Shown: positions 4,461 through 62,576 of the stretch, one piece after another
Layout: every line of letters begins with the position of its first letter
Numbering within the stretch: position 1 is the first letter of the stretch
Assembly (NCBI RefSeq): GCF_015999335.1
Contig: NZ_JAEACP010000013.1
Coordinates: forward strand, 62,001-126,000
DNA: 64,000 nucleotides
Direction of reading: 5' to 3'
DNA from: Tabrizicola soli
GTDB taxonomy: Bacteria; Pseudomonadota; Alphaproteobacteria; Rhodobacterales; Rhodobacteraceae
Translations under genes and position numbers: made by a program
Notes under the pieces: model-generated
The model's database searches: none
What the model was told of the DNA's origin: nothing
What the model saw: the letters and a program-made list of their open reading frames with translations, nothing else

Positions 4461-4490
4461 AAAAGGGGTGGTCCTTGCGGGCCACCCCAG
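4461..4490 (-). terminator. Intrinsic terminator of the miniprotein gene at 4512-4736
   Basis: Read on the minus strand, a 10-bp GC-rich stem (4479-4488 with 4465-4474, one wobble pair) with a four-base loop is followed by TTTT. It lies directly downstream of the 74-aa miniprotein gene. It also faces the end of the plus-strand FAD oxidoreductase gene. Confidence 0.8.
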
Positions 4491-4511
4491 AGCCGACAGA
4501 TTTTCAGGCGA

Positions 4512-4736
4512 TCATTTGGGAGGGGTGCTGCTACCGCCTTCGTCATCGTCGCCGCCGCAAAGCGCGACGCAAAGGATGATCGGGATCAGCAGCAGCGGCA
4601 GGACGCCGACCGAGGAGGCGGGCTTTTCGGCCACGACTTCGGCCTCTTCCTCGATCAGGACGGGGCCGCCGGCGAAGGCGGTGGTGGTGGAAAGCGCCAC
4701 GGCAGCGGCAAGGGTCGTCGCAAGCAGTTTATTCAT
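4512..4736 (-). CDS. Exported acidic miniprotein, tandem paralogue 1
   Basis: A 74-residue protein of unknown function. Residues 1-22 look like a Sec signal peptide ending TTTAFA. The mature part starts GGPVLIEEEAEVVAEKPASS, then a hydrophobic stretch (VGVLPLLLIPIILCVALC) that could span the membrane. It ends in an acidic tail (GGDDDEGGSSTPPK). It is the most divergent of four neighbouring paralogues: L in place of the first V of PVVI, VGV in place of AGI, and a longer tail. Its own terminator lies downstream. I could not find the promoter layout shared by the other three copies. Confidence 0.8.
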   Translation of the reverse strand: MNKLLATTLAAAVALSTTTAFAGGPVLIEEEAEVVAEKPASSVGVLPLLLIPIILCVALCGGDDDEGGSSTPPK

Positions 4737-4828
4737 TGCACATGTCCTGGTTATTGAACTCCCGCGCTTCGCGGCGGGCGGTTCACTGTGCCACAGGAAA
4801 GCAACGGATGCGACCGGAATGACGCATG

Positions 4829-4858
4829 GAAAAGGGCAGCCGTTTCCGGCTACCCCGG
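4829..4858 (-). terminator. Intrinsic terminator of miniprotein gene 2
   Basis: On the minus strand a 9-bp stem (4847-4855 with 4834-4842, one mismatch) around a TTTC-type loop is followed by CTTTT. It separates paralogue 2 from paralogue 1, so the two are probably not transcribed as one operon. Confidence 0.7.
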
Positions 4859-4877
4859 ATGGCGGATGTGCCGTGGG

Positions 4878-5087
4878 TCAGTCCTGGGGCTCATCATCGT
4901 CGCCGCCGCAAAGCGCGACGCAGAGGATAATCGGAATCAGCAGAAGCGGCAGGATGCCGGCCGAGGAGGCGGGCTTTTCGGCGACGACTTCGGCTTCTTC
5001 CTCGATCACCACCGGGCCGCCGGCGAAGGCGGTGGTGGCCGACAGGGCCATCGTGGAGACCAGGGCCGATGCGATCAGCTTGTTCAT
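4878..5087 (-). CDS. Exported acidic miniprotein, tandem paralogue 2
   Basis: A 69-residue protein with the same architecture as its three neighbours. It has a signal peptide ending TTAFA, an acidic spacer (GGPVVIEEEAEVVAEKPASS), a hydrophobic helix (AGILPLLLIPIILCVALC) and a GGDDDEPQD tail. The two cysteines of the CVALC pair are conserved in all four copies. AGGGAC lies about 5 bases upstream of the ATG. A promoter-like pair (TTGAGC, 17 bp, TATCTT) lies at 5127-5155. Function is not recognised. A cell-envelope location is inferred from the signal peptide and membrane helix. Confidence 0.85.
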   Translation of the reverse strand: MNKLIASALVSTMALSATTAFAGGPVVIEEEAEVVAEKPASSAGILPLLLIPIILCVALCGGDDDEPQD

Positions 5088-5126
5088 GTCTTGTCCCTAA
5101 GGTTATTGGCTTGGCAACGTAGGGAA

Positions 5127-5155
5127 AAGATAGATCTGCCGCGTCGAAGGCTCAA
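5127..5155 (-). promoter_or_regulatory. Promoter candidate for miniprotein gene 2
   Basis: Minus strand: a -35-like TTGAGC (5150-5155), a 17-bp spacer and a -10-like TATCTT (5127-5132), about 40 bases before the start codon. The same TTGAG-N18-TA layout recurs upstream of paralogues 3 and 4. Confidence 0.55.
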
Positions 5156-5215
5156 CAGATCGGCGCGGGGTGCAGGAATTTGCCACGCACCTGCGGCAGG
5201 AATGCTGCGGAAATG

Positions 5216-5244
5216 AAAAGGGGCAGCCCTTTCGGGCCGCCCCT
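5216..5244 (-). terminator. Intrinsic terminator of miniprotein gene 3
   Basis: Minus strand: a 10-bp stem (5234-5243 with 5220-5229, one A/C mismatch) with a four-base GAAA loop, followed by TTTTC. It is located 22 bases after the stop codon of paralogue 3. Confidence 0.75.
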
Positions 5245-5265
5245 GGATCGCCGATTGGCGGAAAT

Positions 5266-5478
5266 TCAGGTGGGGCGTTGTTCATCATCATCGCCGCCGC
5301 AAAGCGCGACGCAGAGGATGATCGGGATCAGCAGAAGCGGCAGGATGCCGGCCGAGGAGGCGGGCTTTTCGGCCACGACTTCGGCTTCTTCTTCGATGAC
5401 GACCGGGCCGCCGGCATAGGCGGTCGAGGCGCTGATCGCGACGGACGCGGCCAGCGAGGCAGCGAGGATCTTCTTCAT
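5266..5478 (-). CDS. Exported acidic miniprotein, tandem paralogue 3
   Basis: A 70-residue protein. The signal peptide MKKILAASLAASVAISAST ends at AYA; then come GGPVVIEEEAEVVAEKPASS, the hydrophobic AGILPLLLIPIILCVALC segment and the tail GGDDDEQRPT. The start at 5478 is preferred over upstream in-frame codons because GGAG sits 7-8 bases before it and a signal peptide begins there. The central nucleotide sequence is almost identical to copies 2 and 4, which suggests recent duplication or gene conversion. Function unknown. Confidence 0.85.
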   Translation of the reverse strand: MKKILAASLAASVAISASTAYAGGPVVIEEEAEVVAEKPASSAGILPLLLIPIILCVALCGGDDDEQRPT

Positions 5479-5532
5479 GGTCAACTCCATTCGAGGGACG
5501 GGTGCGGACCTTCGCCCGCTCCAACTGGGCAA

Positions 5533-5561
5533 ACCATAGATAGCTTGCCCCGCACACTCAA
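5533..5561 (-). promoter_or_regulatory. Promoter candidate for miniprotein gene 3
   Basis: Minus strand: -35-like TTGAGT (5556-5561), a 17-bp spacer and -10-like TATGGT (5533-5538), about 55 bases upstream of the start codon. It matches the layout found for paralogues 2 and 4. Confidence 0.55.
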
Positions 5562-5619
5562 ACCTTCGATGGCAAGAGAATCGCACCTGTTGCAATTGCG
5601 CAATAGGACATCCCGGAAA

Positions 5620-5649
5620 CGGAAACGGGCCAGTCTTGCGACTGGCCCG
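5620..5649 (-). terminator. Intrinsic terminator of miniprotein gene 4
   Basis: Minus strand: a perfect 9-bp stem GGGCCAGTC/GACTGGCCC (5640-5648 with 5627-5635) with a four-base loop, then GTTTCCGTTTCC. The T-run is interrupted, so the terminator may be leaky. Confidence 0.65.
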
Positions 5650-5691
5650 GAAACCTGGCGTCGGGGCCTGCGGGGCCCGCGCCGTGGTCGA

Positions 5692-5892
5692 TCACTCGTC
5701 GTTGTCGTCGTCGCCGCCGCAGAGCGCGACGCAGAGGATGACCGGGATCAGCAGGAGCGGCAGGATGCCGGCCGAGGAGGCGGGCTTTTCGGCCACGACT
5801 TCGGCTTCTTCTTCGATGACGACCGGGCCGCCAGCCATGGCGGCCGAGGTGCCGAGGGTCAGGGCCATGACCGACGCGACGAGTTTCTTCAT
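5692..5892 (-). CDS. Exported acidic miniprotein, tandem paralogue 4
   Basis: A 66-residue protein, the shortest of the four. The signal peptide ends AAMA, followed by GGPVVIEEEAEVVAEKPASS, then AGILPLLLIPVILCVALC, then GGDDDNDE. As in the other copies the tail has at least three consecutive aspartates just after the hydrophobic helix. Such a tail would not translocate easily, which fits either an N-out/C-in anchor after signal cleavage or a free hydrophobic peptide. Promoter-like TTGAGG-17-TAGCTT lies at 5947-5975. Function not recognised. Confidence 0.85.
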   Translation of the reverse strand: MKKLVASVMALTLGTSAAMAGGPVVIEEEAEVVAEKPASSAGILPLLLIPVILCVALCGGDDDNDE

Positions 5893-5946
5893 GATGGACT
5901 CCGAGAATGTTAGACGATCCCGTCAGAACGACAGGGCGCAAGGCGG

Positions 5947-5975
5947 AAGCTACTGACGGCTTCACGCTTCCTCAA
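5947..5975 (-). promoter_or_regulatory. Promoter candidate for miniprotein gene 4
   Basis: Minus strand: -35-like TTGAGG (5970-5975), a 17-bp spacer and -10-like TAGCTT (5947-5952), about 55 bases before the start codon. The -10 is weak, but position and spacing match the sites before paralogues 2 and 3. Confidence 0.45.
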
Positions 5976-25407: not shown

Positions 25408-25458
25408 GGCCCCTCCCTATACCGGAGCAGCACCCGGCTCAATCCGCAAGGCACAAAC

Positions 25459-28723: not shown

Positions 28724-28789
28724 CCGATCGCCTCCGCCATCGCCCGGCGCCCGGTATAGACCGGCGGCCCTGTCGCCTCAACCGCACCA

Positions 28790-61819: not shown

Positions 61820-61871
61820 CGGCAGCTCCCCCATCGCCTGCCCCAAGGTTTAGGGGCGGGCGGCGGCAAAC

Positions 61872-62576
61872 TCAACTCCCCGGCGGCATCCGCTCGATCT
61901 CCGCCGCGACCAGCGCCTGCAACCGCCAAAGCCCCGCATCGCGGATGCCGCGTGCATCCAGTTGCGTGACGGTGTTCAGCAGGTATTCCGCCCCCGTCCC
62001 CCAATGGCCGCAGGCGCGCGCGAGCGTGCGGGCCACCTCCTCGGGCGGCAGGCGGCCCGCGTAATAGGGCGAGGCGCGGTTCATCACAAAGCCCAGCGCC
62101 TTCACCGGCCCGTCCGGCGTCCGCACCACCAGCCAGCGCGGGATGTTGTTGATCGGCTTCACCGTGAACTCGCGCCGGAACAGCCGGTCCAGCTGCACCG
62201 CCGGGTCCTCGGGCGGCAACTCCAGCACCACGCCCCGGCACTGGCCGCCCCGGTCCAGCGCCATCATCAGGCCGGGCTGGTCGGGCGTGCCGCGAAAGCG
62301 GTGCACCCGCAGGCAGAAGGCACGGTGCCAGCCCTGCGCCACCGCCGGACGCTCGGCCCGGTGGTCGATCTCGGGCTTCCAGATCAGCGAGCCGGAAGCG
62401 AAGAGCTGGATCGGGGCGCCCGGCGCATGGTCCTTCAGGATATGTGCCACCCAATGCCCGTAATCGGCATCGGTCTGCTGCTCGACCCCCGGCGCGGGCC
62501 CGGCATCGGCGATCTCGCGATGCACCCGGGCGATATGGTCCGGCGTCAGGCTTGGCGGGTCCGGGACACGGGGCAT
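61872..62576 (-). CDS. chaC: Gamma-glutamylcyclotransferase (ChaC-like)
   Basis: A 234-residue ChaC-type enzyme, expected to cleave glutathione to 5-oxoproline and Cys-Gly. The substrate-binding motif (Y)GSLxW appears as FASGSLIWKPEIDHRAER near residue 58. RRAFCLRVHRFRGTPDQPG-like context follows, and a catalytic Glu is expected in RREFTVKPINNIPRWLVV near 135. GGGGGAG precedes the ATG at 62576. It lies between coaBC and rpoH2, all on the minus strand. Confidence 0.88.
   Translation of the reverse strand: MPRVPDPPSLTPDHIARVHREIADAGPAPGVEQQTDADYGHWVAHILKDHAPGAPIQLFASGSLIWKPEIDHRAERPAVAQGWHRAFCLRVHRFRGTPDQPGLMMALDRGGQCRGVVLELPPEDPAVQLDRLFRREFTVKPINNIPRWLVVRTPDGPVKALGFVMNRASPYYAGRLPPEEVARTLARACGHWGTGAEYLLNTVTQLDARGIRDAGLWRLQALVAAEIERMPPGS

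Follow-up and report, generated by a model that had tools for sequence, protein, structure and literature searches.

A tandem array of four miniprotein genes

Why would a bacterium keep four closely similar genes for a small exported-type protein side by side, each apparently with its own control signals, and what could their products do? This question is raised by an array in Tabrizicola soli that lies within the 64,000-nucleotide stretch of DNA analyzed here (the window). A preliminary description of the sequence had reported four tandem paralogues of 66 to 74 aa, and we found them where it had placed them, all on the minus strand:

5692..5892, minus strand, miniprotein gene 1 (66 aa), adjoining a 2-hydroxyacid dehydrogenase gene
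5266..5478, minus strand, miniprotein gene 2 (70 aa)
4878..5087, minus strand, miniprotein gene 3 (69 aa)
4512..4736, minus strand, miniprotein gene 4 (74 aa)

The common build that had been assigned to the four proteins is equally evident: a signal-peptide-like start ending before GGP gives way to an acidic spacer, then to a hydrophobic stretch containing CVALC, and last to GGDDD. Both CVALC and GGDDD are present in all four, and the acidic spacer GGPVVIEEEAEVVAEKPASS is exact in three of them; the leftmost gene (4736-4512) has GGPVLIEEE... at this point. We cast this build as one fixed rule of architecture, which asks for a basic start, then a hydrophobic signal stretch and a site resembling A-x-A, and, toward the C terminus, another hydrophobic stretch before a polar end. 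The rule was framed with Escherichia coli YjbE already inspected and was applied to the ORFs of 50 to 120 aa with ATG starts in the 64 kb window. The four array genes pass and no other such ORF does. Structure prediction gave a miniprotein model of two helices with a mean pLDDT of 65. Metabolic genes surround the array, with aldehyde, iron-alcohol, and 2-hydroxyacid dehydrogenases and an FAD oxidoreductase, and among the nine neighbors scanned we found no export genes and no genes for immunity, maturation, or transport.

Candidate signals for separate transcription

The preliminary description gave each gene its own terminator. Indeed, a hairpin with three to four U directly behind it lies 3′ of all four genes, and candidate promoters of the form TTGAG-N18-TA lie upstream of three:

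5626..5649, minus strand, terminator-like hairpin 3′ of gene 1, also accepted by a strict scan
5219..5244, minus strand, terminator-like hairpin 3′ of gene 2, also accepted by the strict scan
4833..4856, minus strand, terminator-like hairpin 3′ of gene 3, seen by folding against shuffles and rejected by the strict scan
4465..4488, minus strand, terminator-like hairpin 3′ of gene 4, seen by folding against shuffles and rejected by the strict scan
5951..5975, minus strand, TTGAG-N18-TA promoter candidate of gene 1
5537..5561, minus strand, TTGAG-N18-TA promoter candidate of gene 2
5131..5155, minus strand, TTGAG-N18-TA promoter candidate of gene 3

The z scores of the four hairpins were -2.95, -3.29, -4.53, and -5.95, with 2, 1, 0, and 0 of 200 shuffles folding equally well, and the stricter scan accepted two of the four against 1.2 expected by chance. 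The promoter candidates, which had been ascribed to copies 2 to 4, are there if the copies are numbered from left to right: they precede the starts at 5892, 5478, and 5087 and are absent upstream of the start at 4736. A scan of the array for the sigma-70 consensus returned zero promoters. In the whole window, TTGAG-N18-TA occurs six times against 0.72 expected, and the sites outside the array, also on the minus strand, lie at 25418-25442, 28757-28781, and 61851-61875.

Across the genus, we counted motifs upstream of 90 copies, five of them linked to the export gene yjbH described below. TTGAG-N17-19-TA precedes 14 of these 90 against 1.1 ± 1.0 in 20 shuffles, and TTGAG alone shows no clear enrichment (18 copies against 13.9 ± 3.1 in shuffles). 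A minority of the genus copies genuinely carry the spaced motif. TAGCGT was found upstream of 13 of the 90 (0.8 in shuffles). Two further words, TGGCACA and GGCACAG, precede 11 and 10 of the 90 (shuffles: 0.7 and 0.6), and a palindrome, CTGTGGCACAG, at 4786-4796 ahead of gene 4 is a possible operator. Taken together, the hairpins behind four of four genes and the promoter candidates before three of four support, at the level of sequence, separate transcription of the array genes, as had been proposed.

The mature core is alike within genomes, the signal peptide across species

We compared the codons of 89 of the 90 copies, 84 of them array copies, leaving out one array copy (L009, about 2146-2382, in G025) that is frameshifted in its hydrophobic stretch through either decay or assembly error. 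G019 and G023 each have a second locus, which was labeled separately from the first, and orthologues of copy 1 were identified by their signal peptide in 13 genomes, including that of T. soli. Against these orthologues, the signal peptide of copy 1 has 88% amino acid identity and the mature core 77%. Against paralogues in the same genome (29 pairs), the core reaches 90% and the signal peptide 46%. Signal peptides follow array position across species, and mature parts are more alike within a genome. Consistent with this trend, the nearest core by nucleotide identity lies in the same genome for 42 of 82 copies, against a mean of 2.6 and a largest value of 9 with shuffled labels, and the nearest signal peptide does so for only 4 of 82. 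The copy-1 signal peptide (5833-5892) is conserved between species above the level of the mature core, which is unusual for a cleaved part.

In the window, third-position identity over the six gene pairs is 79 to 95% in the core versus 41 to 60% in the signal peptide, and this difference points to gene conversion as the probable source of the core homogeneity there. The genus averages are closer together: core third positions are 67% identical among paralogues of one genome and 60% identical between orthologues of copy 1, and the corresponding synonymous codon differences are 31% and 32%. Since this DNA evidence is modest, selection at the protein level may explain part of the core likeness in other genomes. 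Concerted evolution, one of the suggestions of the preliminary description, thus finds support from third positions that is strong in T. soli and modest in the genus average.

A widespread family without a name

The family had not been recognized from the letters alone, and the four array proteins fit no Pfam or NCBIfam model significantly. With six untailed relatives, these libraries returned only two NCBIfam matches, at E values of 0.016 and 0.048, far below the cut-offs. Against PDB sequences, a profile of 27 family sequences (A1) gave one match at E 0.019, to a protein called LRC. None of 68 pattern matches in viral contigs was confirmed as a relative, and a plasmid search found zero relatives. 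In the open-access literature searched, we found no paper on the miniprotein family. An early suspicion, that these might be small proteins misannotated as ferrochelatase, was dropped when a literature search yielded nothing relevant.

A single-sequence search of 60 relatives found copies in 30 of 31 Tabrizicola genomes (G030 being without any) and in none of 29 genomes from other genera; the richest genome has up to 11 matches. Profile A1 matched 279 of 395 genomes of the bacterial family at E ≤ 0.001, mostly weakly, a count to be taken as an upper bound because signal peptides add to such profile scores. The loci of weak matches that we read share the build of the array proteins, encoding a signal peptide, AGG, an acidic and Ser-rich spacer, a hydrophobic stretch, and a short end. 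One profile had taken in a single out-of-frame dehydrogenase ORF, and the dehydrogenases it matched were disregarded. A class-level sample gave matches in 9 of 289 genomes, five with E < 1e-8 from the same bacterial family (T. soli included) and four between 1e-4 and 1e-3.

Our survey of copy number and synteny showed that tandem arrays are frequent among congeners, many with shared neighbors. The same cation-efflux and TetR genes accompany the copies, two to six per locus, in 16 of 60 loci that were chosen for holding copies; these come from 15 genus genomes, T. soli among them, and one genome of another genus, and the neighbor-gene clusters include shadow frames of real genes. Tandem copies occur in other genera too (L139, L142, L143, L152, L156, L157, and L160). 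The array is common to many congeners and not particular to T. soli. The interpretation first placed on it is supported in part, as to exported miniproteins, separate control signals, and concerted evolution; it had also suggested dosage or differential regulation. In G023 (L039/L040), G019 (L137/L138), G022 (L044/L045), and G007 (L135/L134), the sequences that border the window's array on its two sides occur apart from each other, each with miniprotein copies, as though an array had been broken in two by rearrangement. The array genes are members of a widespread family without a name, and a family so widespread merits its own Pfam and NCBIfam models.

A fifth copy lies behind yjbH and yjbF

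A fifth copy in the T. soli genome, on a different contig, provides a functional lead that is not obtainable from the window alone. Here the order is yjbH, yjbF, and the fifth copy, all on the same strand, with the copy 176 nt after yjbF. Both export genes, which belong to capsule or exopolysaccharide export, were identified by Pfam matches (yjbH, PF06082, E 1.5e-189; yjbF, PF11102, E 6.6e-27), and neither a terminator nor a sigma-70 promoter was found between yjbF and the copy. Adjacency to yjbF/gfcB and yjbH/gfcD thus holds for the fifth copy and fails for the four window genes. Given this company, the array may be an expanded set of sugar-coat helpers.

All 25 genus genomes searched have yjbH, and in 20 of them, with places matched by hand, a copy lies behind it; in one of the 20, G014, the miniprotein match contains a stop codon. 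The loci fetched from the other five have yjbH and yjbF with no copy behind. In wider genomes of the bacterial family, yjbH is found in 123 of 199. From other genera, Tabrizicola excluded, we sampled 40 yjbH loci, about every third listed row and one per genome, including as much as 4 kb of flank in either direction; L175 was dropped since its contig ends too soon, leaving 39. Under a fixed rule, a small exported-type ORF starts 700 to 950 nt past the end of the yjbH match and on its strand in 15 of the 39 loci and is missing in 24. These 15 ORFs fall in stretches of 251 nt (9.8 kb in all), versus seven in the rest of the two strands of 387 kb, and six of the seven are family-like by eye. A looser rule gives 18 loci with a yjbH-linked ORF, L206 having been added to this count only, by eye. 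By either rule, about half or more of the other-genus loci therefore have no ORF there. The sequence profile A4 alone (E < 0.01) recognizes a copy in only 10 of the 40 loci, so it is position and build that carry the link to yjbH across genera. Many genomes, such as G064 and G065, carry the wider family and have no yjbH match. In L195 (G100), three tandem copies lie directly behind yjbH-yjbF, a case of tandem growth inside the export operon as well.

Some relatives carry a Peptidase_S74 tail

In 7 of 41 genomes, a count that misses at least one case (L047), a relative carries a C-terminal Peptidase_S74 (endosialidase-chaperone) domain (PF13884) above the Pfam cut-off, and full-length miniprotein-S74 fusions occur in 11 of 296 genomes of the bacterial family. 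No tailed form was found in the T. soli genome, its own matches ending at profile position 70 of 141, and the window proteins give no PF13884 match. Untailed copies are found near tailed ones in L123, L124, L125, L129, and L157, and L217 has a tailed and an untailed copy side by side. The motif SDxRLK is invariant in all 14 aligned fusions and in all 12 full-length fusions of a second set (L213 is in both). A common neighbor, the same gene in 12 of 13 tailed loci, is one that we take to be lon. Against PDB sequences, the tailed profile matched MyRF (E 0.077) and a phage tail fiber (E 0.89). Foldseek with the tailed form returned nothing at E ≤ 0.001, and the fold comparison is weak.

S74 is described in a passage of PMC8326128 as occurring in the tail spikes and fibers of phages, and the same source states that MyRF is cleaved just before a Ser which, together with a Lys, is catalytic, the equivalent residues in a phage endosialidase being S911 and K916. 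By sequence match, some relatives carry the S74/ICA domain of those two proteins directly behind the miniprotein module and with the Ser-Lys pair intact. By analogy, self-cleavage at the Ser would yield a peptide ending shortly past the hydrophobic stretch, much like the untailed miniproteins. The fused domain, of about 70 aa, lacks by our own comparison the C-terminal coiled coil of MyRF, which part of PMC8326128 names as the driver of MyRF trimerization; the window genes end before the domain. The shortness of the domain, the missing coiled coil, and the weak fold comparison count against activity of the tail.

What the array may be for

We tentatively favor, at somewhat short of an even chance, the reading that the four genes arose by tandem expansion of an exported miniprotein of the YjbE/GfcA-like kind, an accessory of YjbH-type polysaccharide export. 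A cleavable signal peptide would leave about 45 residues, made up of an acidic spacer, one hydrophobic helix, and an acidic end. This mature peptide would sit in or pass through the envelope and serve the YjbF-YjbH machine; it could accept the polymer, anchor it, or itself be exported as a component of the surface. If the array descends from a yjbH-linked copy, its members share the partnership with YjbH, and the candidate promoters are active, the array copies would supply extra amounts of a nearly identical mature peptide from separate transcription units. Since signal peptides, tails, and upstream DNA differ and the cores are alike, the copies would differ in timing or amount more than in product. 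A role for the miniprotein beside YjbH is plausible.

A serious contender, to which we give roughly two parts of belief in five, is a general small envelope protein of Rhodobacteraceae, a single-helix peptide of the membrane or periplasm whose multiple copies would serve dosage or use under differing conditions; the yjbH site would be one of several locations and would not mark its function. The array sits among metabolic genes, the wider profile matches genomes that have no yjbH match, and the divergent upstream DNA, with one promoter motif before only 14 of 90 copies, fits condition-specific use. Against it stands the strong preference for the position after yjbH in unrelated genera, where 15 ORFs fall in 9.8 kb and seven in all the rest. 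It is quite improbable that the array encodes a tandem-amplified secreted hydrophobic peptide with antimicrobial or signaling function: short length, signal peptide, multiple copies, and a homogenized mature part would suit such a peptide, but the mature part is acidic, the nine scanned neighbors include no immunity, maturation, or transport gene, and copies are present in 30 of 31 congeners. Scarcely any weight falls on the idea that the genes are remnants of S74-tailed proteins of phage tail-spike origin that have lost their tail. S74 is a phage spike and fiber domain according to the passage of PMC8326128 cited above, and tailed and untailed copies adjoin in L123, L124, L129, L157, and L217; yet the untailed form is far commoner (full-length tailed forms in 11 of 296 genomes), zero relatives were confirmed in viral contigs, and the reading frames of the untailed copies are open, with signal peptide and core conserved.

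A bolder version of the export reading, which we consider unlikely, would make the miniprotein a protein cargo of YjbH. It would leave through the N-terminal barrel, which others have matched to the amyloid transporter FapF in a part of PMC9603273, and form a surface matrix with the polysaccharide; S74-tailed paralogues would self-cleave to the same peptide as assembly-checked forms, and the homogenized array would provide a large pool of one building block.

Comparison with YjbE and GfcA

The accessory reading of the array leans on the first genes of two E. coli operons, yjbEFGH and gfcABCD, whose products are YjbE (80 aa) and GfcA (101 aa). A passage of PMC8592465 reports that a capsule-linked trait of E. 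coli is disturbed whichever gfc gene is lost and suggests that GfcA is possibly glycosylated and exported by GfcD; GfcA and GfcD are called uncharacterized, GfcA entirely so, in a part of PMC11494523. Like the array proteins, YjbE and GfcA are small, have a signal peptide and one C-terminal hydrophobic stretch, and pass the same architecture rule. They also have in common with them a polar end rich in S, T, D, and G. Several of the ORFs linked to yjbH in other Rhodobacteraceae terminate in T-runs, and so do YjbE and GfcA. Both adjoin YjbF/GfcB and YjbH/GfcD, and so does the fifth copy. The differences are that the spacer is acidic in the window genes versus Ser/Thr-rich in YjbE and GfcA, that the hydrophobic helix of the window proteins is stronger, that the order is yjbH-yjbF-copy in T. 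soli versus yjbE-yjbF-yjbG-yjbH in E. coli, and that the array, unlike YjbE and GfcA, stands outside any export locus.

The YjbE model of Pfam (PF11106) matches neither the window proteins nor the fifth copy, and across genomes it exceeds its cut-off in 0 of 41, the best family member (G004:C68) having E 0.02. A profile of yjbH-linked ORFs scores a window protein at 34.4 bits, YjbE at 14.5, and GfcA at 3.9; among 200 controls with a shuffled mature part, 13 reach the YjbE score and 3 the GfcA score. In profile comparisons, the alignments with YjbE and GfcA cover the signal peptide or just one column. Because of these alignments and the missing PF11106 match, we regard the proposal that the miniprotein works like YjbE as a supported guess, and identity with YjbE goes beyond the data. 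We show nothing new about mechanism; an old question has been made testable. The Rhodobacteraceae offer extra copies whose cores resemble each other and whose signal peptides do not, and some carry a chaperone tail that could cleave itself. Through them the question posed by GfcA can now be approached: which part is under constraint, what the destination of the peptide is, and whether it forms an oligomer.
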